This document shows positions 42,636-55,965 of a stretch of DNA of 58,337 bases, one piece after another. Origin of the DNA: a virus. The stretch is from positions 1 to 58,337 of the IMG/VR virus record IMGVR_UViG_3300033981_001507; one strand, given 5' to 3'. The notes below the pieces were generated by a model that did not search any database, was not told the origin of the DNA, and saw only the letters and a program-made list of their open reading frames with translations. Both the position numbers and the translations under genes were made by a program. Position 1 is the first letter of the stretch; the number at the start of each line of letters is the position of its first letter.

Positions 42636-42662
42636 CGTCCTGGGTATGACGTTAAACTGCCT
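42636..42662 (+). promoter_or_regulatory. H-type pseudoknot leader element, copy 1
   Basis: Stem 1 CGTC/GACG; loop holds CT then GGGTA; single T; after stem 1 TTAAAC and then TGCCT, which pairs with GGGTA (two G-U pairs). Ends 22 bases before the ATG at 42685. Confidence 0.8.
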
Positions 42663-42684
42663 ACATTCCATTGCAATTCAACTC

Positions 42685-42882
42685 ATGAATTCAGCTCAGC
42701 TGACCGCCATGATTTGCCTCATGCAATCACATGGTGGTTCATTTGTTTCATCGATTGCACAAGCACTGCGCGTTGCAGATCCAGTGAATCGTCAGCGTTT
42801 GCTCGACGCATTCCCTGATCTTATCGAGAAGTATGGACCAACATCTGACTTCATGAAACCCAAGCAATTCATTCAGGTCTGA
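42685..42882 (+). CDS. Small conserved phage protein
   Basis: The product has 65 residues from the ATG at 42685. LTAMICLMQSHGGSFVSSIA, ALRVADPVNRQRLLDAFPDL and EKYG match a short protein frequent in phages whose role is not known. The leader contains pseudoknot copy 1 and lacks a Shine-Dalgarno. An in-frame ATG inside the pseudoknot (42646) is not thought to be used. Confidence 0.65.
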   Translation: MNSAQLTAMICLMQSHGGSFVSSIAQALRVADPVNRQRLLDAFPDLIEKYGPTSDFMKPKQFIQV

Positions 42883-42885
42883 CTC

Positions 42886-43143
42886 ATGTCTGTCCTTGCT
42901 ATTGAAGACACCATCATCGAAGGTACCAATGTCACAGTTACAGCAGTGGTTGACGAAATGCGTCTGCTCTATCGGGCAACATATTTCGAACCTGAAGAAT
43001 GGGCTCCAGCTCTTTGCACAGCAAGCTTTGAGCTGGATGAGGAACAACAAATCCCTACTGATGAAGATGGCTTCTGCTGCTATCTTGATCAGCTCGATCT
43101 TCACTGGCAACTCGTCGACACCTCCGATTACGATCTAGACTGA
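42886..43143 (+). CDS. Acidic beta-rich hypothetical protein
   Basis: The product has 85 residues (MSVLAIEDTIIEGTNVTVTA, then LYRATYFEPEEWAPALCTAS), mostly beta strands and acidic. It starts three bases after the previous stop, so it is co-translated. Family not recognised. Confidence 0.6.
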   Translation: MSVLAIEDTIIEGTNVTVTAVVDEMRLLYRATYFEPEEWAPALCTASFELDEEQQIPTDEDGFCCYLDQLDLHWQLVDTSDYDLD

Positions 43144-43148
43144 TCCCC

Positions 43149-43175
43149 TGTCCTGAGCATGACATTAAACTGCTC
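43149..43175 (+). promoter_or_regulatory. H-type pseudoknot leader element, copy 2
   Basis: Stem 1 TGTC/GACA; CT; GAGCA; T; TTAAAC; TGCTC, a perfect partner of GAGCA. Both stems differ in sequence from copy 1 yet pair fully. Ends 29 bases before the ATG at 43205. Confidence 0.85.
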
Positions 43176-43204
43176 ACACACTACGAACTTACTCTGAACT
43201 CACC

Positions 43205-44062
43205 ATGCAATTCCAACTTCCTCAAAACTTGCAGACCGAATTGATTGCCTACGATCCCAAGCTCAAAGCTTTGGTTCGTCAGCAAAAGCAATCATCTCCT
43301 GCTAAAAAAGCCAAGTATCCCCTTGGCAACATCCCGCATGTCATTCCTTATGACGTGGTGCGTGAATCACTGCAGCAAGATGCAATCGATTCGATTAACA
43401 CGCAGCTTGCACCAGATCGTCACCACTCATTTACCAAGCCTGTGGATGTTGCTACTCCGCAGGCCCGTCTCCAAACACGCGCAGTTCTCTATCACTTTGA
43501 ACAGTGTTGGTACGCCGGATGGCTGCCGCCAGCTGGCCAAGAAGACAAGTATGTCTATGGCTATGCACGTGTCTTCCGTGACACTGCGTCAGCACGTAAG
43601 ACAATTCCACGCGATATCATCAACAACATTGATAACTACAACAAGATTGAGATTGGCCGCTCAACATTCTTCATTGACCGTCGTCTTGTAACTCGTCAAG
43701 ACATCATTGATGGCAAAGAAGATCGTGAATGGCGTGCTCGTTATCTTGGTAGCTATACCCAAAAGGGACGGAACATTGCCAAGGCTGTTGAAGAATTCAG
43801 TAAAGCCTTGCAAGAATCAATTCCCACTTGGGGTGATAGCCGTTTCCTTTTTAGCCGCCTTCAATGTGCTGGCATTGCCCAAGCTCTTGAGATTCCTTCT
43901 GTCTTTGTAAGTCAAGAAGAGCAATCTACTTGGCAGCTAACTGTTGATAACTTCTATTCACTTACTGAATTAACAACGCCTGCATACCTTGATTGGCTGC
44001 CACTACGCAATGTCAAACATATCTTTAATACACCCTTCGTAAATGGGTCCAGCAAAAACTAG
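43205..44062 (+). CDS. PcfJ-like protein, N-terminal part (frame broken)
   Basis: It encodes 285 residues (MQFQLPQNLQTELIAYDPKL and so on), helical and Gln/Arg-rich, with EFSKALQESIPTWGDSRFLF. It ends in a few odd residues (VNGSSKN) after HIFNTPF, while the -1 frame continues at once with LRKWVQQKLDESTAIYKDNN into the PcfJ-like region. The two parts look like one gene of about 565 residues broken by a two-base change (repeat ACAC at 44030-44033) or joined by frameshifting. Confidence 0.65.
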   Translation: MQFQLPQNLQTELIAYDPKLKALVRQQKQSSPAKKAKYPLGNIPHVIPYDVVRESLQQDAIDSINTQLAPDRHHSFTKPVDVATPQARLQTRAVLYHFEQCWYAGWLPPAGQEDKYVYGYARVFRDTASARKTIPRDIINNIDNYNKIEIGRSTFFIDRRLVTRQDIIDGKEDREWRARYLGSYTQKGRNIAKAVEEFSKALQESIPTWGDSRFLFSRLQCAGIAQALEIPSVFVSQEEQSTWQLTVDNFYSLTELTTPAYLDWLPLRNVKHIFNTPFVNGSSKN

Positions 44063-44220
44063 ATGAATCCACTGCTATTTATAAAGACAATAACAACAAA
44101 CTACAAGCCAACATCAAACAACCTTTTAATCAGGCTAAGAAACTAGTTGATTCCATCAGCTATGTTCATCGTATTTGGCCTGATTGTCCTATTGATTATT
44201 ATCAAAACCACATTCAAGAA

Positions 44221-44907
44221 TTGCTAGGCATACGCATTCGTTCGTACGCCGTGCAAGACAAGACCATTGATTGGTTGCGTCAACACATGCCTGTTGCTTC
44301 TTTCTTTGGCATCTTTGCCAAATACTATGAAGAAGAGCAGCAACGTGTACGTGCTAATGGCTCTAACGTCACTATGGAACGTGACCTTGGTTTACACGTT
44401 TATGGATTCTATGAATGGTCTGACACAATCAACATGCTTAACCGCATGCTTGAGCACAAGGATCTAAATCCTCCCAAACGTTGGCGCATCAATGAATTTC
44501 ATGATCATGTCCAGGCAGAGTCATGGAAGATTCAAAATCCAAACGAAAAGTTATCGCAGGATTTATTCCCTGAACCCATCAAAGTATCTGTTGATGGTGA
44601 GACTTGGTCATTCTTCCAACCGCACGACACACATCAGCTTGCCATGTGGGGTCAAGCCGTACGCAATTGCGTTGGCTCTGCCTCTGGCTACGCTGAAGGT
44701 GTTCGTAAGAAGAAGCACTTCATCGTGCTTTGTATGGTGGAAGGTAAACCCAGGTTCACCATTCAACTCAAGGTTGACGGTGGCATGATGTCCGTTGATC
44801 AAATCAAAGGTTTATCTAATCAAAACCTGACGCCTGATCAGCGAGACCAATACACCGAAGGGTTCCATGAGGCATTGCAAACCCGCAATGAACAGCTAGC
44901 CTCTTAA
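44221..44907 (+). CDS. PcfJ-like protein, C-terminal part
   Basis: The product has 228 residues from a TTG; the frame is open back to about 44036. The signature HQLAMWGQAVRNCVGSASGY followed by IVLCMVEGKPRFTIQLKVDG matches PcfJ-like proteins, found on conjugative elements and phages with unknown biochemical role. No start codon with a ribosome-binding site precedes it, so it is probably translated as part of the upstream gene. Confidence 0.65.
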   Translation: MLGIRIRSYAVQDKTIDWLRQHMPVASFFGIFAKYYEEEQQRVRANGSNVTMERDLGLHVYGFYEWSDTINMLNRMLEHKDLNPPKRWRINEFHDHVQAESWKIQNPNEKLSQDLFPEPIKVSVDGETWSFFQPHDTHQLAMWGQAVRNCVGSASGYAEGVRKKKHFIVLCMVEGKPRFTIQLKVDGGMMSVDQIKGLSNQNLTPDQRDQYTEGFHEALQTRNEQLAS

Positions 44908-44923
44908 AGGCCGAAGCCAAATT

Positions 44924-44955
44924 GACCAGCCTTAGCCTCGATACTAGGGCTGGTC
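44924..44955 (+). promoter_or_regulatory. 12-bp leader hairpin
   Basis: GACCAGCCTTAG and CTAGGGCTGGTC pair with one G-U around an 8-base loop. It ends seven bases before the ATG at 44963, in the position of a ribosome-binding site. There is no T-run. Confidence 0.6.
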
Positions 44956-44962
44956 CTTCACC

Positions 44963-45184
44963 ATGGAACACGACTACACCGATGATCAACTCCTGGCTAT
45001 GGCTATGGCAAACATCGGAGATTTCATTCATGACAACTCTCCGCATTACGTACTGATCGAAGACGATCCACGTAATGAAGAAGACTACGACACATGGGAA
45101 TATGGCACTGAGCCATTGCCCCATGACCACACTTGGCAGCATGCATCCATTGATGTAAGCGTAAGTCCAAGTGAGCCCGAGTAG
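44963..45184 (+). CDS. Acidic protein running into the tRNA gene
   Basis: The product has 73 residues, very acidic (MEHDYTDDQLLAMAMANIGD, then PRNEEDYDTWEYG). Its last 10 bases, including the TAG stop, are the first bases of the tRNA gene, and GTAAGT element copy 4 is encoded inside its 3' end. Transcript processing must therefore choose between mRNA and tRNA. Confidence 0.6.
   Translation: MEHDYTDDQLLAMAMANIGDFIHDNSPHYVLIEDDPRNEEDYDTWEYGTEPLPHDHTWQHASIDVSVSPSEPE
45130..45173 (+). promoter_or_regulatory. GTAAGT element, copy 4, directly before tRNA
   Basis: Outer stem CACTTGG/CCAAGTG, CA, inner hairpin GCATGCATC-catt-GATGTAAGC with one mismatch, then GTAAGT (45161-45166). It ends one base before the tRNA and lies within the coding sequence of the 73-aa gene. 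Confidence 0.75.
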
Positions 45185-45251
45185 CCCAGCGGTAGTAGGC
45201 AAGCGACTTAAAATCGCTCCAGCGTGAGTTCGAATCTCACCTCGGGTACCA
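45175..45251 (+). tRNA. tRNA with anticodon UAA (Leu) but short variable loop
   Basis: The cloverleaf is complete: acceptor GCCCGAG/CTCGGGT (one G-U), D stem GCC/GGC, anticodon stem AGCGA/TCGCT with loop CTTAAAA giving anticodon TAA at 45209-45211, variable loop of five bases, T stem GTGAG/CTCAC with loop TTCGAAT, then A and encoded CCA. UAA reads Leu codon UUA. Normal tRNA-Leu has a long variable arm, which is missing here, so the amino acid it carries is uncertain. Confidence 0.88.
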
Positions 45252-45269
45252 ATTCACTTACTCAACACC

Positions 45270-45632
45270 ATGCAAATTCTTGCTGCTTTCAAATCAGTTA
45301 TCCCTGAATTCCATGCGTTTTCTGACGAAGACAATCGCTACAACCTCGGTGCAACTTGGACTGCACCAGACGGTCTCAAGGATTACTACAACTTGGAACT
45401 GCGCTACGTTCACAACTCTGAACGCCTTGCGCTCCAAGGCGATCCTCAACCGGATGGCAGTTGGAAGTACACCGAACCCAATGGTTGTACCCACACCATT
45501 ACCGCTGATCGTGCCAAACACTTCATGGAACAAACCCATCAGCACGCCACAATCATGTGCGCCATGCTCGATAAACTCAAAGAAGCTGGCGTGATGGAAC
45601 CAGTGGTGGACACCCAGGTTCAAGCGGTCTAA
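45270..45632 (+). CDS. Hypothetical protein
   Basis: The product has 120 residues, mixed alpha/beta (MQILAAFKSVIPEFHAFSDE, then HTITADRAKHFMEQTHQHAT). No motif recognised. It is followed by a strong terminator. Leader ends ACTCAACACC before the ATG without a Shine-Dalgarno. Confidence 0.65.
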   Translation: MQILAAFKSVIPEFHAFSDEDNRYNLGATWTAPDGLKDYYNLELRYVHNSERLALQGDPQPDGSWKYTEPNGCTHTITADRAKHFMEQTHQHATIMCAMLDKLKEAGVMEPVVDTQVQAV

Positions 45633-45653
45633 ACTACACGAGAAGTGCAGACG

Positions 45654-45678
45654 GCCCCTGGGAAACCGGGGGCTTTTT
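45654..45678 (+). terminator. Rho-independent terminator, rightward
   Basis: GCCCCTGG, loop GAAA and CCGGGGGC make an 8-bp stem followed by TTTTT (45674-45678). The next gene starts only five bases later. Confidence 0.9.
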
Positions 45679-45682
45679 CCTT

Positions 45683-46045
45683 ATGATCAGTCAGTCTCAA
45701 AACGATTCCATTGATCTTGACTTGGTTGATAAAGTCATCGCGATGATTCCATCCGAGACTTGGTCAGCAGTCATCGATGCCATTGTTGGTAACATCGTTG
45801 ACAACATGCCAAGCACTGTTGTTGAACGGTTGACTGGAACCATCGATAACTTTGATCGTGCAGAAGAAATCCTTTTGGATTACTACCGCATCCCTTTGCG
45901 TAAGCATGATCTAATTGTTGATGCATTCAAGATCATTGGCCCAGAAAATACTCTGTATTTATTGGATTCTTTGCAGTTAGATAAGTACGCAGAAATACGT
46001 AATCAATCTATTGATAACGCACCCTGTTCACTTGATCCCCAATGA
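45683..46045 (+). CDS. Acidic helical hypothetical protein
   Basis: The product has 120 residues (MISQSQNDSIDLDLVDKVIA, ending PCSLDPQ), all-helical and acidic. It begins directly after a terminator, so it needs a promoter within or beyond the terminator or readthrough. Its stop overlaps the next ATG (ATGA). Function unknown. Confidence 0.65.
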   Translation: MISQSQNDSIDLDLVDKVIAMIPSETWSAVIDAIVGNIVDNMPSTVVERLTGTIDNFDRAEEILLDYYRIPLRKHDLIVDAFKIIGPENTLYLLDSLQLDKYAEIRNQSIDNAPCSLDPQ

Positions 46046-46386
46046 ACTGCCCGTCTTGCTCAAGCAAGTACACACGCGTCACCTGCACCAATCACTTCCC
46101 TGGTTTTACTAAACGCTATTGCCGATGTCTTTCATGTGATGCTAAGTACCGCACCATTGAGCGATACGAAGTCTTGAAGCCGGGTCCTCCTAAAGGCAAA
46201 CCAAGGCCTGGTAACGTTGCCCGTGGAGCTGATAACGGTAATGCTGTACTGACTGAAAAGAACGTACGGCATATTCGCCGTATGCATGCCTGGGGTTTTA
46301 ACCATCAAGCAATCTCTGTGAAATACGGCATCAGCGTATCGTACATCTCACGCATTGTTAACCGAAAAGCTTGGACTCACATCTGA
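46042..46386 (+). CDS. NrdR-like zinc ribbon fused to HTH
   Basis: The product has 114 residues. Residues 1-43 carry CPSC and, after a long loop, CLSCDAKYRTIERYE, the zinc ribbon of the ribonucleotide-reductase repressor NrdR. NrdR's ATP-cone is absent; instead residues about 70-114 form a homeodomain-like HTH (LTEKNVRHIRRMHAWGFNHQ and onward) like those on homing nucleases. It is DNA-binding and possibly regulatory; target unknown. Confidence 0.65.
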   Translation: MNCPSCSSKYTRVTCTNHFPGFTKRYCRCLSCDAKYRTIERYEVLKPGPPKGKPRPGNVARGADNGNAVLTEKNVRHIRRMHAWGFNHQAISVKYGISVSYISRIVNRKAWTHI

Positions 46387-46685
46387 TGGCAAACAAAGCA
46401 CAGTTCAAATACACCATTGGTGATCGCGTTGCTGAACGTCCCAAGACCCATGGGATCTTCACCAACAAACAAGACGTGCGTGAACGCATCGCACAACACA
46501 GGACACAACGCTACGGCACAGTCATTGACTTCAAGGAAAAGCGTGACTCCCGTGGTACCAAGATGAAAGTCCTTGTCGTCCAATGGGACCACCTTGCTTC
46601 TCCAACGGAGCACGCGCAAATGCGTATTTGTCCTATTGATCATCTCGATCAACTCAGCAAAAATACCGTGGTACCCGGAGAATAA
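46386..46685 (+). CDS. Small basic beta protein
   Basis: The product has 99 residues from the ATG at 46386 overlapping the previous stop (TGATG). It is basic and beta-rich with a KOW/SH3-like look (FKYTIGDRVAERPKTHGIFT, then GTVIDFKEKRDSRGTKMKVL). It ends two bases before thyX; GGAGAA in its last codons serves as the thyX ribosome-binding site. Confidence 0.65.
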   Translation: MANKAQFKYTIGDRVAERPKTHGIFTNKQDVRERIAQHRTQRYGTVIDFKEKRDSRGTKMKVLVVQWDHLASPTEHAQMRICPIDHLDQLSKNTVVPGE

Positions 46686-46687
46686 AG

Positions 46688-47317
46688 ATGCCTGTCAAAT
46701 TGGTATGGGCAACGCCCAACGCAGAAGAAATGATCGTCAAGATGGCGCGTGTTTCTGCACCGCGCAATCAAGACAACATGGACACTGCACCACGGTTGCT
46801 GCGTTATCTAATTAACAACAACCATTGGTCGCCGTATGAGATGGCAAACATGTGCGTTGAGATTGAAACGACACGTGCAATCGCACCACAGATCTTGCGC
46901 CATCGTTCATTTAGTTTCCAGGAATTTAGTCAACGCTATGCAGATGCCAGTGAACTTGGCTCCGCTGTGATCCCTCACCTGCGTCGTCAAGATCAGAAGA
47001 ATCGTCAAAATAGTATTGATGATTTGGATTCTGATTTAATCTCTGGTTACTACCGTCGCATCAGTCATCTGTATGAAGACGCTGAACATCTGTACCGTGA
47101 GATGATCAGTAACGGTGTCGCCAAGGAATGTGCTCGTGCGGTTTTGCCGCTTTCGACACAGACACGCCTATACATGAACGGTACACTCCGTTCGTGGATT
47201 CATTATCTTCAACTGCGTACTGCCAATGGAACCCAACTCGAACACCAACAAATTGCCCGAGACATCCAACAAATCTTCTGTGACCAATTCCCTGTTATCG
47301 GGGAAGCTGTCTTCTAA
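46688..47317 (+). CDS. thyX: FAD-dependent thymidylate synthase ThyX
   Basis: The product has 209 residues. The ThyX signature RHRSFSFQEFSQR is at 71-83, with EIETTRAIAPQIL before it and an R-containing C-terminal region (TRLYMNGTLRSWIHYLQLR). It makes dTMP from dUMP with methylene-tetrahydrofolate and FADH2. Together with phage dCTP deaminase it supplies dTTP for replication. GGAG seven bases before the ATG is one of the few good ribosome-binding sites in the rightward region. Confidence 0.95.
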   Translation: MPVKLVWATPNAEEMIVKMARVSAPRNQDNMDTAPRLLRYLINNNHWSPYEMANMCVEIETTRAIAPQILRHRSFSFQEFSQRYADASELGSAVIPHLRRQDQKNRQNSIDDLDSDLISGYYRRISHLYEDAEHLYREMISNGVAKECARAVLPLSTQTRLYMNGTLRSWIHYLQLRTANGTQLEHQQIARDIQQIFCDQFPVIGEAVF

Positions 47318-47322
47318 TAAAA

Positions 47323-47345
47323 AGCCTCTGTTCGATCCAGAGGCT
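47323..47345 (-). terminator. Terminator, leftward
   Basis: AGCCTCTG and CAGAGGCT make an 8-bp stem followed on the minus strand by TTTTTATTAG. It lies after the leftward 38-aa gene and directly after the thyX stop, so it may end transcription from both sides less efficiently on the plus strand. Confidence 0.75.
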
Positions 47346-47357
47346 GATGAACGGGAA

Positions 47358-47474
47358 TTAAAAAGTCGAGGCCGGTTGTTTTTTTAATTCTTTGATGGCA
47401 TGTTTGGATTCAATATCCTTACGTGCCGTCTTTTTCTTTTGATCAATTAAGTAAACAATCAGTGCCTTGTTCAT
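47358..47474 (-). CDS. 38-aa Lys-rich protein
   Basis: The product (MNKALIVYLIDQKKKTARKD, then an Ile/Lys helix ending PASTF) has GGAGG nine bases before the ATG and overlaps the DUF4278-like gene by four bases (ATGA). It is followed by a leftward terminator. A real two-gene leftward unit is thus likely. Function unknown. Confidence 0.6.
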   Translation of the reverse strand: MNKALIVYLIDQKKKTARKDIESKHAIKELKKQPASTF

Positions 47475-47623
47475 TTGATTTGACCTCCGATCAGGTGAGG
47501 AAGGTATCCAATATTACGGTATGTCAGGCGCAGCCAAGGGCGATGGGCCAGGTTCCACCAGTCCCTATCCTTCTTGGCTTGTTGCTCTTTGTCATACTTG
47601 CAGCCGCGATACGTTAGTTCCAT
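47471..47623 (-). CDS. DUF4278-like 50-aa protein
   Basis: The product (MELTYRGCKYDKEQQAKKDR, then WWNLAHRPWLRLTYRN) begins with the LTYRGxxY motif of DUF4278, a small family common in cyanobacteria, which supports a cyanobacterial host. It is the first gene of a leftward pair embedded in the rightward region; function unknown. Confidence 0.65.
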   Translation of the reverse strand: MELTYRGCKYDKEQQAKKDRDWWNLAHRPWLRLTYRNIGYLPHLIGGQIK

Positions 47624-47700
47624 AAGATTCTGTATCTATTAATACGGAAACTATATGATCGTTGTTGTATATGATGTCGTTCATCATGTAACACATCAAC

Positions 47701-47727
47701 GGACCTGGGATGTCCTTAAACTCATCC
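47701..47727 (+). promoter_or_regulatory. H-type pseudoknot leader element, copy 3
   Basis: Stem 1 GGAC/GTCC, different in all four pairs from copies using CGTC/GACG at two or more positions; CTG; GGAT; TTAAACTC; ATCC pairs with GGAT. Ends 34 bases before the ATG at 47762, whose leader ends CCACACCACACC. Confidence 0.8.
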
Positions 47728-47761
47728 ATAAGCTTTGCTTATCTTTTATCCACACCACACC

Positions 47762-48535
47762 ATGAAACTCCTCAAGTTTTCCACCGGTAACGGTAAGCTC
47801 AAGAACCGTTTGATCTTCTCGCTTCCAGCGGGTTACTCCTGTCCGCACGCTGGTGTCTGCAAGACCTTTGCTGACCGTGCCACAGGTACCATCACTGATC
47901 TGCCCCAGACCACTGGTACCACAGCAGATGAGTTCCGCTGCTTTGCAGCCATGTCAGAAGTGCGCCCCAACGTCAGGGAAGCACGCTGGCACAACTGGGA
48001 TTTGCTGCGTGAAACGCTGTATTCCAATGGCAACCAAGTCACACTGCTGCGTGACCTCATTGATCTGTCCTTGACCATGATGCCGCCCAAACAATTGGTG
48101 CGGGTCCATGAGTCTGGTGATTTCTGGACAGAGAACTACATGAAGGCTTGGTTCATGGCTGCAACCGAGCGGCCCAACCAAACCTTCTATGCCTACACCA
48201 AGTCGCTTGGCATGTGGCTTAACCTTGCCGACATCATTCCACCTAACTTCTATCTCACTGCGTCCCACGGTGGTACGCTCGATTACCTCATTCCCAAACA
48301 CCCCAAGGTGTTCAAGCGCATTGCCTATGTGGTCTACACAGAACAACAGGCAACTGAGCTGGGATTGGAAATCGATCACGACGATAGCCATTGCTTGGGC
48401 GACAAGCCGTTTGCACTGCTGGTACATGGCAGTCAACGCGCTGGTACAGAAGCCAGTAAGGCGTTGTCTCAACGCAAGAAAGATGGTGACTTTGTTGGCT
48501 ATAGTGCAAAACGTTTAAAACAAGCAAGCAAATGA
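47762..48535 (+). CDS. Gp88-like protein
   Basis: It encodes 257 residues from the ATG at 47762. A Cys-containing N-terminus (YSCPHAGVCKTFADRATG) and the motif LVRVHESGDFWTENYMKAWF followed by NQTFYAYTKSL fit the phage Gp88-like family, whose members share an Fe-S-like Cys pattern; the biochemical role is unknown. Preceded by pseudoknot copy 3 and CACACCACACC. It overlaps an HNH gene by four bases. Confidence 0.75.
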   Translation: MKLLKFSTGNGKLKNRLIFSLPAGYSCPHAGVCKTFADRATGTITDLPQTTGTTADEFRCFAAMSEVRPNVREARWHNWDLLRETLYSNGNQVTLLRDLIDLSLTMMPPKQLVRVHESGDFWTENYMKAWFMAATERPNQTFYAYTKSLGMWLNLADIIPPNFYLTASHGGTLDYLIPKHPKVFKRIAYVVYTEQQATELGLEIDHDDSHCLGDKPFALLVHGSQRAGTEASKALSQRKKDGDFVGYSAKRLKQASK

Positions 48536-48999
48536 CTAGAGGTAGAAAATCAAATACAGTATTTACATTTTTAAAACAAATTGACCCCTCCGGGGGTCTT
48601 GAAACTTGTTGGCCTTGGTTGGGATTTAAAAATCCAAAAGGCTACGGCCAATCATCTTTAAATAATAAAACTATGTTGGCACATCGTTGGAGTTATCAAT
48701 ATTATTACGGCAATGTTATTGCAAATGATTTACACGTTTGTCATTTATGCGACAATCCTTCATGTTGCAATCCTTTGCATCTTGTTTTGGGAACAAACCA
48801 AAACAATGTAAATGACAAAATGCAACGTGGTCGTTTTAAGCCAAGGCAAACGCGGTTTACCCAGGAAGATCTTAATAAAATGAAACAGCTGCGTGAAGCT
48901 GGAATGAGTAGAGACAAGCTTGCAAAACTTTTTGGATGTCACAAAGCTACCATTGCAGACCGTGAACGTTTAGGTTTCCGCAAATCAAATCGAAAGTAA
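48532..48999 (+). CDS. HNH homing endonuclease
   Basis: The product has 155 residues. The HNH_3 core shows HRWSYQYYYG, then CHLCDNPSCCNPLHLVLGTN with Cys/His zinc ligands, and a C-terminal HTH (LNKMKQLREAGMSRDKLAKL). It is AT-richer than its neighbours, consistent with mobile origin. The start overlaps the Gp88-like stop (ATGA). It may target the Gp88-like or polymerase locus, both intact here. Confidence 0.85.
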   Translation: MTRGRKSNTVFTFLKQIDPSGGLETCWPWLGFKNPKGYGQSSLNNKTMLAHRWSYQYYYGNVIANDLHVCHLCDNPSCCNPLHLVLGTNQNNVNDKMQRGRFKPRQTRFTQEDLNKMKQLREAGMSRDKLAKLFGCHKATIADRERLGFRKSNRK

Positions 49000-49062
49000 T
49001 TCCGCACACCTTGCATTGCTCAATAAATCGGATATTATCTGAGCGTTCTTTCAACGTTCACC

Positions 49063-49296
49063 GTGAGCTACGTCATTGCAACCTGGAAAAATGGAGTGCC
49101 ACACGCCATTACTGCGTGTAATAAATCCAATCAATTTCTGTTGATTCCGTTAGACTCTGACGTAGCTCTCAACAAGATTTTCTCTCATCCGTACCGTGCG
49201 GGTGCGCAGCAAATCTTGGCGTGGATTAACAAGAACAATGACAAGCTCTCTGGTCAAGACCTCTCAATTCAAGATGAAGCCAGATTCCGTAAGTGA
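49063..49296 (+). CDS. Small hypothetical protein before polymerase
   Basis: The product has 77 residues from a GTG (MSYVIATWKNGVPHAITACN, ending DEARFRK). It overlaps the polymerase start by 23 bases in another frame, so the two are likely co-translated. A weak GAGCGTT/AACGTTC hairpin lies in the leader. Function unknown. Confidence 0.6.
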   Translation: MSYVIATWKNGVPHAITACNKSNQFLLIPLDSDVALNKIFSHPYRAGAQQILAWINKNNDKLSGQDLSIQDEARFRK

Positions 49297-51097: not shown

Positions 51098-51133
51098 ACC
51101 TACTCTCTACTGGGCTTGACGCCGTGTTGTAAT

Positions 51134-51173
51134 GTGGTAGGGCAGCGAGTTTCCGGCTCCTGCCCACGGCCAC
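51134..51173 (+). promoter_or_regulatory. Nested-stem leader structure
   Basis: GTGG/CCAC, GGGCA/TGCCC and GAG/CTC stack into a structure of about 40 bases. It ends 15 bases before the ATG at 51189 and follows the polymerase gene. There is no T-run. Confidence 0.5.
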
Positions 51174-51188
51174 AGTTCCCTAGAAACC

Positions 51189-51362
51189 ATGACCAAACAA
51201 GAATATCGTGGCTCGCCCCACACAACTTGGGCTAAAGACGGAAAAGTCTTTCTAGCCAATGAAGAAGACAGTTACTACACCGAAGAGTTCCGAAGCCGCG
51301 AAGAGCTGGAAGTCTTTATCCAGCAGTTGCGTGCTACTGCCGATGAAGCGTGGCCAACCTGA
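51189..51362 (+). CDS. 57-aa hypothetical protein
   Basis: The product (MTKQEYRGSPHTTWAKDGKV, then TEEFRSREELEVFIQQLRAT) is a compact alpha/beta protein with a Glu/Arg-rich helix. The ATG follows TAGAAACC, with no Shine-Dalgarno. Family not recognised. Confidence 0.6.
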   Translation: MTKQEYRGSPHTTWAKDGKVFLANEEDSYYTEEFRSREELEVFIQQLRATADEAWPT

Positions 51363-51380
51363 GTAGTCACCTTCACTTCT

Positions 51381-51572
51381 ATGTCTAACCTTTCACCACA
51401 GGCCCAAGAAGTGTTCTGGGCGTTCAACCGAGCCGCAAGCGGCAAGCCTGATGATTGGCACTATCTGCCAGCCATCGCCGCTGCCGTTCGTGCCGCAGGT
51501 GAGCAATGCACCTATGTGACTCGCACTGAACTCAACCTCATTGCTGATGAGTTAGAAGCCTTTGCCCAGTAG
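51381..51572 (+). CDS. Small helical hypothetical protein
   Basis: The product has 63 residues (MSNLSPQAQEVFWAFNRAAS, then AIAAAVRAAGEQ), Ala-rich helices of the kind seen in small phage early proteins found also in bacteria as uncharacterised proteins. No Shine-Dalgarno. It is followed by pseudoknot copy 4 for the next gene. Confidence 0.65.
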   Translation: MSNLSPQAQEVFWAFNRAASGKPDDWHYLPAIAAAVRAAGEQCTYVTRTELNLIADELEAFAQ

Positions 51573-51587
51573 TCACCTTCACTTGCA

Positions 51588-51614
51588 CGTCCCAGGTATG
51601 ACGTTAAACTGCCT
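51588..51614 (+). promoter_or_regulatory. H-type pseudoknot leader element, copy 4
   Basis: Stem 1 CGTC/GACG; CC; AGGTA; T; TTAAAC; TGCCT pairs with AGGTA (one G-U). Ends 20 bases before the ATG of the SSB gene at 51635. Confidence 0.8.
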
Positions 51615-51634
51615 TCCACCCTACTTCTCTTGCA

Positions 51635-52450
51635 ATGAATTTCTTTGCTGGTTGCGCTCAACTTCTTGAAGATCCTCGGGAAGTTTTTACAGGCGCCAAC
51701 TCAACTGCAATGCGCTGCATGATTAGCCTACCGGCTGTCGGCGCTAAGAAAGCAGACACTCCCATCGAACTCAACATCTACGGCAAGACGGCTGAACGTT
51801 TTGCTCGCATGAAAAAGAACATGGGAATTTACCTGCATGATTCCACGCTTCGCTATGACTTAGATACCAGGCAACTCTCTTTGCATGGTGGTGTCATTGG
51901 CATGGTTAATGCAGAGACATTCCCGATTCTCAACACTGTCATCCTCAGTGGACGTTGCGTCAAAGATGTCAACCACGAAGATGAACGTGCTTTTAAAACC
52001 ACACCAAGTGGTTTGATGATCTGCAACCAAACCCTTGCGGTTAATACTGGTCGCAATCAATCTGATCTCTTTAACTTCTACGCAATTAATAACGCAGAAG
52101 ATAAGCCTAACTACGCAGAACTTCTGTGTAACTTCACCCGCAAAGGAACGGGCTTAACAATTAAGGGTCGACTGGTTACTGATTCCTGGATCGATAAAGA
52201 TTCAAGGGAAAAGAAAATACAAACTAAGATCGAACTTAAAAAGATGACGCTGTCTCCCAAGGCAGTCGATGGTTCCGCTCCGATCCAGCCCCAAACAACT
52301 GTTGCATCCGAAGGGAATGTTGGTTCACTGTGGGGTGGTCGCACTATGGATGAACAACCTGATCCTTGGGGTCATGGTGAAAGCGGACTGCCTGATCTCC
52401 CTGGTCAATACGGCAGCCCATCCAAAGATGACGACAACGCACCGTTTTGA
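51635..52450 (+). CDS. Single-stranded DNA-binding protein
   Basis: The product has 271 residues. Two beta-rich regions suggest tandem OB folds (about 10-100, and 105-205 with TFPILNTVILSGRCVKDVNH and FNFYAINNAE), then a Gly/Pro linker and the acidic tip DDDNAPF, close to bacterial SSB's DDDIPF. It would coat ssDNA at the phage fork and contact replication proteins. The leader pseudoknot recalls the T4 gene 32 leader used for SSB autoregulation, a parallel only. Confidence 0.7.
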   Translation: MNFFAGCAQLLEDPREVFTGANSTAMRCMISLPAVGAKKADTPIELNIYGKTAERFARMKKNMGIYLHDSTLRYDLDTRQLSLHGGVIGMVNAETFPILNTVILSGRCVKDVNHEDERAFKTTPSGLMICNQTLAVNTGRNQSDLFNFYAINNAEDKPNYAELLCNFTRKGTGLTIKGRLVTDSWIDKDSREKKIQTKIELKKMTLSPKAVDGSAPIQPQTTVASEGNVGSLWGGRTMDEQPDPWGHGESGLPDLPGQYGSPSKDDDNAPF

Positions 52451-52472
52451 TAACAAACGCTGATGTTCCATA

Positions 52473-52499
52473 GCGCCTGGTCACTTCTAGACTAGGCGC
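52473..52499 (+). terminator. Hairpin after the SSB gene
   Basis: GCGCCTGGT and ACTAGGCGC make a 9-bp stem (one G-U). It lies after the SSB stop and one base before pseudoknot copy 5. No T-run follows, so termination is uncertain; RNA 3'-end protection is another option. Confidence 0.45.
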
Positions 52500-52500
52500 C

Positions 52501-52527
52501 CGTCCTGGGATGACGTTAAAAGCATCC
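52501..52527 (+). promoter_or_regulatory. H-type pseudoknot leader element, copy 5
   Basis: Stem 1 CGTC/GACG; CTG; GGAT; TTAAAAGC; ATCC pairs with GGAT. Ends 22 bases before the ATG at 52550. Confidence 0.75.
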
Positions 52528-52549
52528 GTTGTTCTACTACGAACCAACC

Positions 52550-53650
52550 ATGACAACGACTCCTGTTGACATGATGGATGAAGCTTGGATGGATGAACTC
52601 CAATCCAAAGTTGATTCCTCTTCTCCCAAGAAACCTACTACGACTTTGACCATGAAGAAAACCTCTGCTCTTGCCACCCGTGGCCTGGATTCCTTCAAAC
52701 TTTTCCAAGATAAAAAGTTTGTGTCCGGATACCAGAATCTCGTCACCATCCAACCTCTCAACAAATCCAAGACACGAGGTTGGTTCGTGCGGAAGTCAGA
52801 CCTTGACACTTGTGGATGGAACGCCACTGAAGATCAATTTGCTAAAGGTTCACTTATCTGGAACTACAAGCAAACTTTTGGTATGGCTCCCAATACTTCA
52901 GTGGAAGAAGGACTCAATTTTACTGAGCCTCGACTTCAAGTCCTTCTACGTTCTCCCCTTATGGTTGAGGAAACGACTGGGATGAGGCAGACGATTGGAA
53001 CCTTTGAGGATCCAGACGTTAAAGAATTGTTTGAAGCTGATAAGATTGCATCCGACCTTGCCAACAGCAAAGGTGAGATGTACAAGCGCAAGTACAGCGT
53101 GCGCACCAAGTACCTTGTTTACATCCTGACGGAAGACAACAAGCGTGCCCACAAGATCCCCATGGTCTTGACCTTGAAGGGTCTTAATGGCACCGACGTG
53201 TCTGAGAAGATCAAGATGTATGAGAAGGAAATGTCCAAGTGTCTGAGCAAAGCACTGGACTCTGAAGTTCCTCTTGCATTCAACGAAAAGTTCTATGCAA
53301 CTACCGTCTTTGCTCCGGTGCTTGCCAATGAGATGCGCGGTGCCAACAACGTTGAGATCTGCGCTATTGAATCGTTTGACATCCCTGATTATTCCGATCA
53401 GGAAACTGCAATCGAATCATTGAATCGCCTCTCGATTCCTGATGAAGATCGTGAATCTACCTGGAAGTTCCAGGAAATGTTCAGCGATTACATCAACCAA
53501 CACGCACGGCAAGATGCTGAAAAGCTTGGCGGTGCCTATGGAATCAAGGCTGGTGTTGAGATTCTTCCTGTGTCCCGCACCACGGATGTCGAAGTTAAGG
53601 CTTTGCCTGCCCGTGATCCGATGACCGGTGAAGACGATTCACTGATCTGA
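52550..53650 (+). CDS. DUF5895 protein
   Basis: It encodes 366 residues from the ATG at 52550. It matches DUF5895, a family of cyanobacteria and their phages, through GWFVRKSDLDTCGW, VEEGLNFTEPRLQVLLRSPL, TKYLVYILTEDNKRAHKIPM and a later KFYATTVFAPVL. The function is not established; location beside SSB and polymerase suggests DNA replication or recombination. N-terminal ~45 residues are disordered, as in many ssDNA-associated proteins. Confidence 0.75.
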   Translation: MTTTPVDMMDEAWMDELQSKVDSSSPKKPTTTLTMKKTSALATRGLDSFKLFQDKKFVSGYQNLVTIQPLNKSKTRGWFVRKSDLDTCGWNATEDQFAKGSLIWNYKQTFGMAPNTSVEEGLNFTEPRLQVLLRSPLMVEETTGMRQTIGTFEDPDVKELFEADKIASDLANSKGEMYKRKYSVRTKYLVYILTEDNKRAHKIPMVLTLKGLNGTDVSEKIKMYEKEMSKCLSKALDSEVPLAFNEKFYATTVFAPVLANEMRGANNVEICAIESFDIPDYSDQETAIESLNRLSIPDEDRESTWKFQEMFSDYINQHARQDAEKLGGAYGIKAGVEILPVSRTTDVEVKALPARDPMTGEDDSLI

Positions 53651-53902
53651 TTCAACCTGGGGGTTGGCAAGATCATCTTGATTAATGGAAACATTGTTAA
53701 AGATGAACATATCTTGTACCAATCCCCTTATTACACCTTGTCTTTGGGTAGCGATCCTCGCTAAGAGGGTCGCTATTTCTTTCAATGCACTAACCGAATT
53801 ACATTCCTGGATTGTGCGCTTTAGCTTCTCTTCCCAAAACTTATCGTCTAACGATGGTTCAATTTGGAATTGAGACAACGGCACATACTTAATCTTGTCC
53901 AT
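53639..53902 (-). CDS. Leftward hypothetical protein
   Basis: The product has 87 residues (MDKIKYVPLSQFQIEPSLDD, then a helical region). It is convergent with the DUF5895 gene and overlaps its end by 12 bases. Composition is protein-like with balanced charges. A CAACC/GGTTG hairpin lies near its 3' end. No Shine-Dalgarno. Confidence 0.55.
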   Translation of the reverse strand: MDKIKYVPLSQFQIEPSLDDKFWEEKLKRTIQECNSVSALKEIATLLARIATQRQGVIRGLVQDMFIFNNVSINQDDLANPQVESDQ

Positions 53903-53983
53903 GGAATGTATTCAATTGTTACTTAATTTTACTTCTATAGTAAACACCGTTTATCTTTTTTCAAATGTATTAACAATCACCTC

Positions 53984-54187
53984 ATGAAACCAGAGCACAA
54001 AGCAGTTCTTAAAACTGCAGGAACATTTGGCGCTATCGGGGCTGGTGCACTTCTTGTCCTTGGTAATCCCGTTGCCTGGGCAGCACTTGGCTACGCAACC
54101 TACAAGGTTGGTAAATCCGCCTACCTCAAGGAGCAAGAACGTGTTAAGCTCCAGCGGTCAGGACAAGATCCCGATCTGTTCATCTGA
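53984..54187 (+). CDS. Small membrane protein
   Basis: The product has 67 residues. One long hydrophobic segment (GTFGAIGAGALLVLGNPVAW) is followed by a charged tail. Similar short Gly/Ala-rich membrane proteins are frequent in phage early regions. Function unknown. The gap 53903-53983 before it is AT-rich and could hold a promoter. Confidence 0.6.
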   Translation: MKPEHKAVLKTAGTFGAIGAGALLVLGNPVAWAALGYATYKVGKSAYLKEQERVKLQRSGQDPDLFI

Positions 54188-54213
54188 CACATTTCACACC
54201 ACACCAATTTGCT

Positions 54214-55149
54214 ATGACTGAAACTCTGCTTGAACTTAATGAAGCTCAAACGTTCATCTACACACGGACGAATATACGCCGTGCGTTCCCGGACTTCAAT
54301 GAAGCCGATGTCACGGGCATCTATCTTTTTGATGACCTTTGCCGTGTGCTTTACCGTGACGGTAGCAAAGTTGATTATCCACGCCAACCAATAAAAGAAG
54401 CATTTGTTTCTTTTACCAACAGGCTAAAAGATTTCTTTGCTTACCTTGGCCCCAATTACAGGGGTCCAAGTATCTGGAATCAGAATGCCTACGTTATGTT
54501 CAAAGGATGGAGCTACGTTCATGCCCTTGGATCGCACACCGTTAACGCTCGTCTCCAAGCCCAGTGGGCAGACAAGTTCATTCGCCTTTCAGACCAAGAC
54601 CAGCTCAAAGCCGTACTTCAGTCTGACCAGACCGACCTTGGATATCTGGTTGCACCGGACGGGTTTCGGCTTGAGGATCGGCTCGTTGACATGGACTCTG
54701 AACTGGATGAGAATGAACAACGGTCCAGCTTTGGCGAACCTAGCTGCTCGTGTGGGTCCTTTCAGCGTCAGCTCAATCATCTATCGCAATTCCAACAAGA
54801 GATCCAAGGGTTTAAACCCTGGTGCATCCATCTGACTTGGTTCAACAAATACAGGGATCTTCTGTGCAAACGTACTGAAGTACGCAATGCCTGTCCTGCC
54901 TACGCGCCTGATAAGTGTGTGGCTTGGTGGTATGCACCACCGTCGGATGCCATTACGGATGGACGTTTCCTGTTGCTGCACACCAAGCATGGTGCACAAG
55001 CGCCGCTAACCCACTGGCGTACCTACAAACCAAAGGAGGTGTTCACCCAGCATGATGCCTGGACTTTATTCGATAACATGCTGGAGTCAGGCTACGTGCC
55101 TTTCCCAGGTGTTGCTTTGCCTCAACTCAAAACTACAACCAAAAAATGA
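54214..55149 (+). CDS. SWIM-type zinc-finger protein
   Basis: The product has 311 residues. CSCGSFQRQ at about 178 and a later CIHLTW fit the SWIM pattern CxC...CxH, a zinc-binding module found in DNA- and protein-binding factors. Flanking regions are globular and aromatic-rich (SYVHALGSHTVNARLQAQWA). The leader has CACACCACACC some bases upstream. Role unknown; possibly an early regulator. Confidence 0.65.
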   Translation: MTETLLELNEAQTFIYTRTNIRRAFPDFNEADVTGIYLFDDLCRVLYRDGSKVDYPRQPIKEAFVSFTNRLKDFFAYLGPNYRGPSIWNQNAYVMFKGWSYVHALGSHTVNARLQAQWADKFIRLSDQDQLKAVLQSDQTDLGYLVAPDGFRLEDRLVDMDSELDENEQRSSFGEPSCSCGSFQRQLNHLSQFQQEIQGFKPWCIHLTWFNKYRDLLCKRTEVRNACPAYAPDKCVAWWYAPPSDAITDGRFLLLHTKHGAQAPLTHWRTYKPKEVFTQHDAWTLFDNMLESGYVPFPGVALPQLKTTTKK

Positions 55150-55373
55150 CTGACGACATCCTTGAATACGCTCGTCAACTTGCAACGCAACCAACTGTTA
55201 ATTTTATGAGCAACTACCAACGCTATGACCTTGAAGTTCCAGAAGACACTCACTGGGAACTTGTAAAGATGGCTGCAGACCTTAGGATGCATCACGAAGA
55301 CTATGTTCAAAACATGTTGATTGCCCATGTCGAACAACACTTGGATAACGAAGCTGCAGCTAGAGGTGATTGA
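55146..55373 (+). CDS. Small helical hypothetical protein
   Basis: The product has 75 residues (MTDDILEYARQLATQPTVNF, ending NEAAARGD). Start overlaps the previous stop by four bases. Acidic and helical; no motif recognised. The next gene starts 47 bases before its end. Confidence 0.6.
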   Translation: MTDDILEYARQLATQPTVNFMSNYQRYDLEVPEDTHWELVKMAADLRMHHEDYVQNMLIAHVEQHLDNEAAARGD

Positions 55374-55527
55374 AGAAGACAATGGTGGGTGTTGTATCCA
55401 CATTGAGTGGGACGATACCGACCCAGATCTAGCAGAATGGACCAGCTGGGGTGAACAACACCAGCAGGACTTTGTCCTTAAATCTTTACAAACCGCTATT
55501 GATGTCGATTTTCCCCATGTCACTTGA
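55327..55527 (+). CDS. Acidic hypothetical protein overlapping its neighbours
   Basis: The product has 66 residues from the ATG at 55327 (MSNNTWITKLQLEVIEEDNG, then CCIHIEWDDTDPDLAEW). Acidic beta-rich character is protein-like. It overlaps the 75-aa gene by 47 bases and the next gene by 8 in different frames. No function known. Confidence 0.55.
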   Translation: MSNNTWITKLQLEVIEEDNGGCCIHIEWDDTDPDLAEWTSWGEQHQQDFVLKSLQTAIDVDFPHVT

Positions 55528-55933
55528 TACTTACGGCCTTGAGTTTGACCGCTACAAGGATCTGTTCTTGCAAGAATCAGCGCATTTGCTGTACTTGTAT
55601 TTTGAATTTGACAAGGCTATTGAAAAATGTGCAAAGGACTTTGGTTATGCCAAGCCTTCTGAAAAAACTAAATACGATTTGTTTACCGATGTTCTCTATT
55701 CAACAAACGATGACGCCCGCAAGATTCAACGCAAAGAAAACCCTGACACCTTCAAAGAGGAAACGCTTGACTTTATTTCGCCAAGTCGCGAAGAACTGTC
55801 AGAAAAACTGGACTCTGTCAATGCCAAGGTTGAAGCATTGACGGATTACATTGCTAACCTTGTGACAGTTACCAAGGTCGGCTTGACAGACCTGGTAGAC
55901 TGCTTCGACGACTCGGCGGAAACGTCAGATTGA
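55520..55933 (+). CDS. Helical hypothetical protein
   Basis: The product has 137 residues from the ATG at 55520 (MSLDTYGLEFDRYKDLFLQE), helical with a Glu/Asp-rich C-terminal coiled coil (EELSEKLDSVNAKVEALTDY). Family not recognised. It overlaps the previous gene by 8 bases and ends just before pseudoknot copy 6. Confidence 0.6.
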   Translation, partial: SLDTYGLEFDRYKDLFLQESAHLLYLYFEFDKAIEKCAKDFGYAKPSEKTKYDLFTDVLYSTNDDARKIQRKENPDTFKEETLDFISPSREELSEKLDSVNAKVEALTDYIANLVTVTKVGLTDLVDCFDDSAETSD

Positions 55934-55938
55934 GTCTA

Positions 55939-55965
55939 CGTCCTGGTCATGACGTTAAACTGACC
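55939..55965 (+). promoter_or_regulatory. H-type pseudoknot leader element, copy 6
   Basis: Stem 1 CGTC/GACG; CT; GGTCA; T; TTAAAC; TGACC, a perfect 5-bp partner. Ends 22 bases before the ATG at 55988. Confidence 0.85.

Follow-up and report, generated by a model that had tools for sequence, protein, structure and literature searches.

The window analysed here, a stretch of 58,337 nucleotides spanning positions 1 to 58,337 of IMG/VR record IMGVR_UViG_3300033981_001507, carries six copies of a short RNA element within 42,636 to 55,965, each followed by a gene on the same strand (Table 1). A preliminary description made from the sequence of this window had reported six knots, their stem 1 and stem 2 sequences, a distance of 20–34 bases to the next start codon, and starts that mostly lack a Shine-Dalgarno (SD) sequence. 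All six copies lie where it placed them and have the stems it gave, the measured distances fall in its range, and no obvious SD is seen in any of the six linkers between knot and ATG. Its labels for the GP88-family, single-strand DNA-binding (SSB) and DUF5895 proteins are borne out by profile matches, while the name ‘PcfJ-like’ for the protein encoded at 43205 could not be confirmed: at E ≤ 0.01 this protein matches nothing in Pfam or PHROG.

Table 1. Coordinates of the pseudoknots in the window and of the genes behind them (L1–L3, loops; R1, covariance model)
Feature	Position (strand)	Sequence elements or product	Adjacent codons	Score or match
Knot 1	42636..42662 (+)	stem 1 CGTC/GACG; L1 CT; stem 2 GGGTA/TGCCT; L2 T; L3 TTAAAC	starts 5 nt past stop; 22 nt to ATG 42685	R1 44.5 bits
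Gene 1	42685..42882 (+)	65-aa protein, function unknown	ATG 42685 in frame with ORF listed from 42646	phrog_15317, E 0.0014
Knot 2	43149..43175 (+)	stem 1 TGTC/GACA; stem 2 GAGCA/TGCTC (6 bp counting T..A to 43176)	starts 5 nt past stop; 29 nt to ATG 43205	R1 45.4 bits
Gene 2	43205..44062 (+)	285-aa protein
Knot 3	47701..47727 (+)	stem 1 GGAC/GTCC; L1 CTG; stem 2 GGAT/ATCC; L3 TTAAACTC	34 nt to ATG 47762	R1 17.4 bits, E 0.018
Gene 3	47762..48535 (+)	257-aa GP88-family protein		PF17338, E 5e-41
Knot 4	51588..51614 (+)	stem 1 CGTC/GACG; L1 CC; stem 2 AGGTA/TGCCT	starts 15 nt past stop; 20 nt to ATG 51635	R1 41.4 bits
Gene 4	51635..52450 (+)	271-aa single-strand DNA-binding protein		PF00436, 2.9e-9; phrog_44, 1.4e-22
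Knot 5	52501..52527 (+)	stem 1 CGTC/GACG; L1 CTG; stem 2 GGAT/ATCC; L3 TTAAAAGC	22 nt to ATG 52550	R1 12.8 bits, E 0.3
Gene 5	52550..53650 (+)	366-aa DUF5895 protein		PF19247, 1.4e-13
Knot 6	55939..55965 (+)	stem 1 CGTC/GACG; L1 CT; stem 2 GGTCA/TGACC; L3 TTAAAC	starts 5 nt past stop; 22 nt to ATG 55988	R1 43 bits
Gene 6	55988..56107 (+)	39-aa protein (ORF list only)

We scanned both strands of the window with a descriptor that required four Watson-Crick pairs in stem 1, an L1 of 1–3 bases, a stem 2 of 4–6 pairs, an L2 of 0–2 bases and an L3 starting TTAAA. It returned the six copies and two AT-rich extras (30665 on the plus strand, 11268 on the minus strand); model R1 at E ≤ 5 returned exactly the six copies and no others. 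The copies at 47701 and 52501 form a subtype with an 8-nt L3 and score weakly with R1. Stem 2 contains two G-U pairs in the copy at 42636 and one in the copy at 51588. Four of the six copies lie close behind the stop codon of an upstream ORF, a feature absent from the preliminary description. In the linker behind the copy at 47701, a small hairpin (ATAAGC..GCTTAT) can be made out by eye.

An H-type pseudoknot with compensatory changes in both stems

Comparison across related sites establishes a ∼27-nt RNA family that forms an H-type pseudoknot, with two crossed stems that both vary by compensatory change; no probing or structure data are available. The consensus has a 4-bp stem 1, an L1 beginning with C, a stem 2 of 4–6 bp, a junction of 0–2 bases, and an L3 that is mostly (U/C)UAAAC. 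Of 91 sites selected on stem 2, 87 have a paired stem 1 (shuffled maximum, 52), as do 37 of the 41 that remain without the dominant CGTC/GACG type (shuffled maximum, 21). Conversely, stem 2 is paired in 124/134 sites that were not selected on it, against a swapped-tail maximum of 73. Swapping the halves of stem 1 left 10 and 6 matches where there had been at least 120 and 95, and none of those left form the knot. These results support the view that pairing in the RNA is under selection. Ordinary folding yields stem 1 or stem 2 alone, and the knot itself is without a computed energy.

The 91-site selection demanded a C after stem 1 and TTAAAC, so that the invariance of both in this set is by construction. 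Without that demand, in leaders chosen by their protein, C follows stem 1 in 20/21 and 8/8 of the knots found, and TTAAAC is present in 13/21 and 7/8. The compensatory-change analysis used 66 of the 91 sites, in which stem sequences vary freely; stem-2 pairing there follows from the selection, and only helix 1 is independent. Three of the four sites with an unpaired stem 1 are in this smaller set, and one (L292) was left out. Covariation of both stems, together with the rarity of broken pairings, led us to reject a DNA-level element such as a promoter.

Two outcomes would have refuted the preliminary description: absence of covariation beyond this genome, or a match to a known Rfam family. Neither occurred. 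Covariation is present outside the genome, and Rfam 15 gave no match over the knots, either in the window at the gathering threshold or at 12 related loci under permissive settings. In the open-access literature, the 11-mer TGACGTTAAAC was met only under unrelated titles, and searches on cyanophage pseudoknots and phage scaffolds returned nothing relevant by title. The family, which the preliminary description had not recognised, is thus not described in Rfam or in the open-access literature searched. That a small, widespread family is absent from Rfam suggests that covariance pipelines can miss short pseudoknots.

Conservation of the knot in leaders and its spacing to start and stop codons

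Leaders picked by the protein behind them keep the fold. Among unique leaders of GP88 orthologues, taken from the best 80 of 235 stretches, 57/62 contain the core, as do 16/16 unique leaders of SSB orthologues. These counts rest on a looser core test, for which coding stretches served as one control (0/62 and 0/16) and shuffled leaders as another (at most 2 for GP88 and 1 for SSB). The strict descriptor alone finds the knot in 29 of the 62 GP88 leaders from these best 80 stretches and in 8 of the 16 SSB leaders. Viewed by eye, the GP88 leaders are densely packed in the order hairpin-knot-hairpin.

A knot in the leader of a phage SSB gene is what an operator like that of T4 gene 32 would call for, and the copy at 51588 together with all 16 orthologue leaders fulfils this. 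The gp32 operator consists of a ∼28-nt pseudoknot and a less structured stretch with UUAAA repeats (PMC535899), and the layout here is similar: a phage mRNA, a knot, then a less structured leader, with an SSB gene among the carriers (in the window and also in Synechococcus phage S-EIV1). An RNA-binding repressor might accordingly nucleate on the knot, spread along the leader and shut the gene off. We consider this improbable. The T4 operator serves one gene and lies upstream of a tract of >40 nt with an SD, whereas the present knots precede many unrelated genes, stand 20–34 nt from the AUG in the window, differ in sequence, have no known repressor, and are mostly single in bacterial genomes. 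PF00436 was found in 11 of 19 knot-bearing records and not in the other 8, some of which are fragments (gp32-type and T7-type SSBs, like other SSB folds, were outside the search); an SSB operator covering all copies is weakened by this.

Spacing was measured in 139 non-redundant viral neighbourhoods, comprising IMG/VR loci and the window only and excluding named phages, genome contigs and broken-half controls. Most of the loci derive from CGTC- and GGAC-type patterns, and the ORF sets are mechanical, so genes without the knot include false ORFs. Phage copies lie chiefly in leaders between two genes. The leader placement proposed for the window extends to this set: an ORF starts 10–44 nt downstream in 111 of the 139 copies, against a background of 28.5%, and 64 of these starts are at 20–22 nt and 4 below 19; the other 28 copies have no start in the range. 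A stop codon lies 5–12 nt upstream in 81/139 (background, 4.3%), and phage knots rarely lie <5 nt from an upstream stop. ORFs within 110 nt downstream fall into 113 protein clusters (some of these mechanical ORFs will be false), so the spacing is not the heritage of one gene. An SD of ≥4 nt is present in 7.8% of 103 knot-bearing leaders versus 23.8% of 2752 (same IMG/VR and window loci), and G makes up 5.8% of the last 19 nt versus 19.2%.

Annotated phages had first suggested an element tied to the stop codon only. This reading was demoted for phages, because copies with a start and no near stop outnumber those with a near stop and no start by 40 to 10. Where no ORF of 40 codons ends nearby, a stop triplet at a gap of 5 is only mildly frequent (10/59).

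The stop-proximal copies also invite comparison with recoding signals. Luteovirus frameshift pseudoknots have a very short L1 beginning with C and an A-rich last loop ending AAAC, and the family resembles them in its short L1, its A-rich L3 and, in many copies, a 5–6 nt spacer past the stop that matches the distance of frameshift stimulators from the decoding site. Readthrough or frameshifting at the upstream stop codon is nevertheless highly unlikely, and we rejected it as a general role: in 61 copies with a gap of 5, reading on in frame adds a median of 18 codons and reading in the +1 frame 3 codons, and the starts are spread over all three frames (26, 18 and 14 of 58). Some knots precede tRNAs, many have no nearby stop, and, unlike luteovirus knots, those of this family lie past stop codons between genes with no overall recoding signature. 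The minus-one frame after the stop is longer (median 32 codons, open to the start in 19/26), and recoding is not excluded at single loci.

A close rival to a role in initiation is an mRNA-stability or insulator element, which we regard as unlikely without dismissing it. A compact knot could block exonucleases, acting 3′–5′ behind the upstream gene or 5′–3′ (e.g. against RNase J) before the downstream gene, or shield exposed intercistronic RNA, and its place between genes would follow from ribosomes melting it anywhere else. Such an element would account for both lower spacing edges without ribosome docking and for the excess of copies 5–12 nt past a stop. It also fits copies before tRNA-like genes, those that close a small gene ahead of a terminator, and the packing of GP88 leaders; viral exonuclease-resistant RNAs use pseudoknots (PMC12191101). 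The sharp optimum at 20–22 nt and the predominance of start-only copies speak against it, there are no decay data, and the knot also occurs in a Vibrio phage, whose host group is not known to have RNase J.

A possible ribosome standby element

Our best guess, which remains tentative, is that the knot is a ribosome-facing initiation (standby) element; the mechanism is inferred, with no binding, probing or expression data. Both spacings, from stop to knot and from knot to AUG, would be ribosome footprints. With a knot beginning 5 nt past the stop, the upstream ribosome could terminate without unwinding it, and a 30S subunit placed at the AUG would cover ∼20 nt upstream; since both spacings fit, the folded knot may sit where the mRNA leaves the initiating 30S. 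There it could serve as a docking or standby site, perhaps via ribosomal protein S1, that concentrates 30S subunits at SD-less starts, and it may keep the G-poor linker open. The proposal is meant for phage copies with a spacing of 20–34 nt, to which all six window copies belong.

The standby reading draws on the stem covariation with its controls, the 20–22 nt peak, the variety of genes that follow the knot, the surplus of start-only copies, the annotated starts and stops around the S-EIV1 copies, the scarcity of SDs and of G in knot-bearing leaders, and the retention of the core in orthologue leaders. The knot also adjoins a stretch without structure ahead of the start, as expected of an S1/30S standby pseudoknot and as in the S1-binding pseudoknots of the tisB standby site, an S1 SELEX ligand and rpsO. 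For tisB, PMC7708055 describes an H-type pseudoknot with stems of 9 and 5 nt which, with an unstructured region, is needed for S1/30S standby, and stem swaps that restore function. The tisB standby site is separated by ∼100 nt from a sequestered RBS further downstream, whereas the present knot is near an open, mostly SD-less start; its stems are only 4 and 4–6 bp, and S1 binding by it is only inferred.

Several observations count against a standby role. The distances may simply be the minimum that a compact genome imposes on any stable structure: knot-free genes on the same contigs, both SD-less and SD-bearing, are also structured at −35 to −55, and a tRNA in the window ends 21 nt before an AUG. 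Absence of an SD is common in the knot-free rightward genes of this phage, and in 28 of the 139 viral copies the range of 10–44 nt is without a start. If the knot does drive SD-less initiation, start-codon choice without an SD in cyanophages and their hosts, a long-standing question, becomes directly testable; should it instead block nucleases, bacterial viruses would possess a counterpart to exonuclease-resistant RNAs. In both cases, synthetic biology gains a compact part, and unannotated small phage genes can be sought with the knot as a marker.

Spread in phages and bacterial genomes

Phage S-EIV1 has seven copies; by its depositors’ annotation, a start lies 21–29 nt downstream in 6/7 and a stop 5–11 nt upstream in 5/7. 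Further copies occur in phages of Staphylococcus, Lactobacillus, Geobacillus, Nostoc, Lentibacter and others. In Bacillota phages the knot mostly stands 49–98 nt before an SD-bearing ATG and is also met in front of scaffold genes, and actinophage and Nostoc-phage copies precede tRNA-like genes. Both settings weigh against standby as a common role, and the fold may be used differently in Bacillota phages and bacterial genomes.

By eye, many Bacillota-phage copies and a microvirus copy have a T-run close behind the knot, as would suit a transcription attenuator or terminator in which knot and U-tract act on RNA polymerase. No T-run directly follows any of the six window copies, nor, by eye, most of the cyanophage-like copies among the matches listed, which leaves this explanation quite improbable. 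A riboswitch was set aside, as no metabolic gene theme was seen and a phage may carry several copies.

In bacterial genomes, matches were found in 32/59 genomes of one bacterial class, mostly one copy each. Where examined, the knot lies across or behind the stop codon of a gene for a ∼22-aa Cys/His peptide, of which no description was found in the open-access literature searched; a terminator follows in several cases, and there is mostly no start at 20–22 nt, a stop-codon placement that again does not favour standby. E. coli gave no match to one near-consensus query, which diverged copies would escape. In cyanobacterial genomes, a model search that scored ≤64 first-look candidates per genome gave 0/117 at E ≤ 1e-4, but a pattern scan did match two contigs of Chamaesiphon metagenome-assembled genomes (MAGs; L252 and L278), where the knot lies 6 nt past a long ORF that, by eye, looks Mu-transposase-like. 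R1 is weak for the TTAAAAG subtype and missed one such copy (L281). The family is neither cyanophage-specific nor always in leaders, many of its copies additionally keep a fixed distance to the stop codon before them, and the earlier reading had to be extended in these respects.

This dispersed occurrence also bears on whether the knots act as decoys in type III toxin-antitoxin systems, titrating ToxN-like RNases. ToxN is bound by ToxI, a repeat unit of 36 nt, and phage PhiTE has pseudo-ToxI pseudoknot repeats (PMC3475682); like these, the family consists of small phage or bacterial pseudoknots. Its members are, however, mostly single leader copies with one tandem case (L071), their stems vary freely, and no Rfam model matched over the knots, so a decoy role is barely credible.

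It is conceivable, though we would not bet on it, that the 27-nt pseudoknot is a portable device, present in phages of several bacterial phyla and in bacterial genomes, that acts on a universal host machine (the ribosome or an RNA-decay enzyme) and that phages use for SD-independent starts of early genes.

A pseudoknot family in the window and its covarying stems

The window, 58,337 bp of an IMG/VR virus record, carries six 27-nt motifs that are predicted to fold as H-type pseudoknots (knots; see table). Each is laid out as stem 1 (4 bp), loop L1 (2–3 nt, first base C), stem 2 (4–5 bp), L2 (0–1 nt), the stem-1 return, L3 and the stem-2 return, with L3 being TTAAAC, TTAAACTC or TTAAAAGC. A layout scan of both strands recovered all six copies listed in the preliminary description plus two AT-rich extras. 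R1, a covariance model built from relatives, in which stem 2 is modelled and stem 1 is handled as sequence, returned the same six and no other match at E ≤ 5, the two copies with an 8-nt L3 being weak (E 0.018 and 0.3). The preliminary description had not recognised the family, and neither does Rfam, whose only matches in the window are a group I intron and a tRNA and which, in permissive searches of 12 related loci, gave no match over any knot.

Both stems covary, as had been proposed from the six copies alone, and they do so well beyond the window. The IMG/VR pattern CGTCCYRRN{1,4}ATGACGTTAAA gave at least 120 matches. Among the 134 unique matches listed, selected without any stem-2 demand, stem 2 reaches at least 4 bp in 124 and at least 5 bp in 100; swapping 3′ tails among these sites gives means of 60 (maximum 73) and 36 (maximum 48), respectively. 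Of 95 stretches with the compensated stem 1 GGAC..GTCC, 63 are unique, and 54 of these have stem 2. The two broken stem-1 combinations occur in 10 and 6 stretches, and the knot does not form in any of them. Conversely, of 91 sites selected on stem 2, TTAAAC and a C following stem 1, 87 have stem 1 fully paired, in 11 pair types (after shuffling, mean 39.7 and maximum 52); when the CGTC/GACG type is left out, this holds for 37 of 41 (maximum 21 after shuffling). Within a subset of 66 of the 91 sites, pairing in stem 1 reaches 98.5%, three of the four stem-1 pairs show double changes, and the structure as a whole is 97.3% paired versus 23–46% with partners slid by 1–3 columns. In leaders chosen by protein, where these bases were not required, the C after stem 1 recurs in 20/21 and 8/8 knots. 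The RNA family is real, and it is absent from Rfam and from the papers searched; its function is inferred.

Structured RNAs of the window, and the knot elsewhere
Feature	Position or locus	Strand	Detail
Knot	42636	+	
Knot	43149	+	
Knot	47701	+	before GP88 gene
Knot	51588	+	before SSB (single-strand DNA-binding protein) gene
Knot	52501	+	
Knot	55939	+	
tRNA	45175–45248		
Group I intron	21785–22068	−	87.8 bits (Rfam)
Single R1 match			Staphylococcus B166; Lactobacillus phiEF-1.1; Latilactobacillus TMW 1.706 P2 (E 0.014); Nostoc NMeng1; Microcystis Mwe-JY13; D6E; S-H35; Mycobacterium Labelle; Arthrobacter Molivia; Paracoccus ParMal1
Two R1 matches, one weak			Moorella MTATph1
Found by BLAST			Geobacillus GR1; S-CRM01 (stem 1 AGTC/GACT); Streptococcus Javan407 (one stem-2 mismatch); Lentibacter ICBM1 (ACAC/GTGT); phig1e (TGAC/GTCA); Vibrio phage (TCTC/GAGA)
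Peptide-gene loci	L407–L411, L413–L436, L438–L442, L238, L239, L266, L281, L285, L299		
Bacillota scaffold-gene leaders	L234, L236, L246, L261, L288, L292, L026, L043, L124, L128, L134, L304		

Distribution among viruses and hosts

The family is spread far more widely than was known when the preliminary description was made. The genome of Synechococcus phage S-EIV1 contains seven copies, which represent four stem-1 types, and four related contigs (G003–G006) have 5–7 copies at E ≤ 0.5. Further named phages (see table) add the L3 variants CTAAAC, AAAAAC and TTGTAAAAC; stem 1 has no more than three pairs in crAss-like cr7_1, a microvirus and ParMal1. One database stretch (L071) holds two copies, each closely followed by a second related motif (CGTCCGAAATGACGTTAAACTATT) in tandem. 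No match to one consensus query was found in 5,426 E. coli genomes, and none of 117 genomes of the cyanobacterial phylum matched, with scoring limited. The knot is present in two MAG contigs of the cyanobacterium Chamaesiphon (L252 and L278), 6 nt downstream of a long ORF that is Mu-transposase-like by eye. A Phytoplasma vitis chromosome stretch (L282) has at least two motif-like sites, one of them with imperfect pairing in stem 1 and another lacking stem 2.

Placement between stops and starts

In 111 of 139 non-redundant IMG/VR neighbourhoods, a reading frame of at least 30 codons starts with an ATG 10–44 nt downstream (28.5% at random places); 64 of these starts are 20–22 nt from the knot and four are nearer than 19 nt. 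On the upstream side, 81 neighbourhoods have the stop codon of an ORF of at least 40 codons at a distance of 5–12 nt (4.3% at random). These distances peak at 5 nt, and in four neighbourhoods the nearest stop of this kind is less than 5 nt away. Start and near stop occur together in 71 neighbourhoods, a start only in 40, a near stop only in 10 and neither in 18. The deposited annotation of S-EIV1 places a start 21–29 nt downstream of six of seven knots and a stop 5–11 nt upstream of five. Leaders of orthologues fetched by protein, not by motif, keep the core in 57/62 unique cases for GP88 (50 with good stem 2) and 16/16 for SSB; control coding stretches contain it in 0/62 and 0/16, and shuffled leaders in at most two and one. 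Knot linkers contain little G (5.8% versus 19.2%), and few have a Shine-Dalgarno sequence (SD; 7.8% of 103, compared with 23.8% of 2752 mechanical ORFs). Within the window, a permissive SD test that includes false ORFs gave SD-like matches for 23/52 leftward versus 7/49 rightward mechanical ORFs.

The two sharp lower edges of this spacing are the strongest clue to how the phage copies act. Because the position 5 nt after a stop is the mRNA entry of the ribosome reading it, and 20 nt before an AUG is the edge of the 30S initiation complex, the knot could stay folded with a terminating ribosome and an initiating 30S both present. We infer, without binding data, that it may be a docking or standby element for SD-less starts. 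S1 would be its likeliest partner, since this protein binds H-type knots and standby at tisB depends on such a knot (PMC7708055).

The main weakness of this docking reading is that any stable structure in a compact genome could be subject to the same two edges as passive limits, and a stability or insulator element therefore remains a close rival. Genes without a knot have structure at −35 to −55 as well, and the window tRNA ends 21 nt before the ATG at 45270, the same distance as the knots, with a G-free linker. An SSB operator, with a layout like that of T4 gp32, is an appealing reading for the SSB gene itself; its generality is not shown. Recoding is not supported overall.

By eye, GP88 leaders with the knot 30–42 nt from the ATG often have an extra small hairpin. 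In the GP88 leaders at L327–L406, also by eye, TTCCCGAACGGGAA-type hairpins often immediately precede the knot and a small hairpin follows it, so that the intergenic region looks structured to about 18–20 nt before the ATG.

Bacterial peptide genes and scaffold-gene leaders

In bacterial genomes (labelled Zixibacteria, Deltaproteobacteria, Desulfomonile, Spirochaetes, Bacillota and Pelotomaculum), the knot lies at the end of an undescribed gene for a ∼22-aa peptide, M-K-R-F-x-x-P-R-V-A-H-C-x-E/D-G-C... (more fully M[KT]RF[MIS][IV]PRVAHC[SK][ED]GC..SRA). This gene has an SD and is found across several bacterial phyla; its stop codon is inside the knot or 4–5 nt before it, with a terminator behind in several. 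The knot matched in 32 of 59 genomes of one class, once in 30 of these, and 20 of the 32 were viewed by locus. The peptide pattern is present at 38 of 42 loci examined, or 33 of 37 distinct loci after removal of five repeats; two of the four without it (L439 and L441) have a variant by eye. Three of these peptides, of which two were composites, had no match in NCBIfam. Some versions read ..EGC-TGA and others ..EGCC, and the neighbours include a PrdB-like protein (below cut-off) and a PDZ protein, with a weak match to a Trx7/PDZ (seleno)protein model, also below cut-off; a selenopeptide is thus conceivable.

In Bacillota phages the knot mostly precedes head-scaffold genes by 49–98 nt (by 29 nt in D6E). 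The order in these leaders, prophages included, is the knot, a T-run in many, a second knot-like fold in some (e.g., CGTGGCGTTGCACGTTAAAAACG) and an SD before the ATG.
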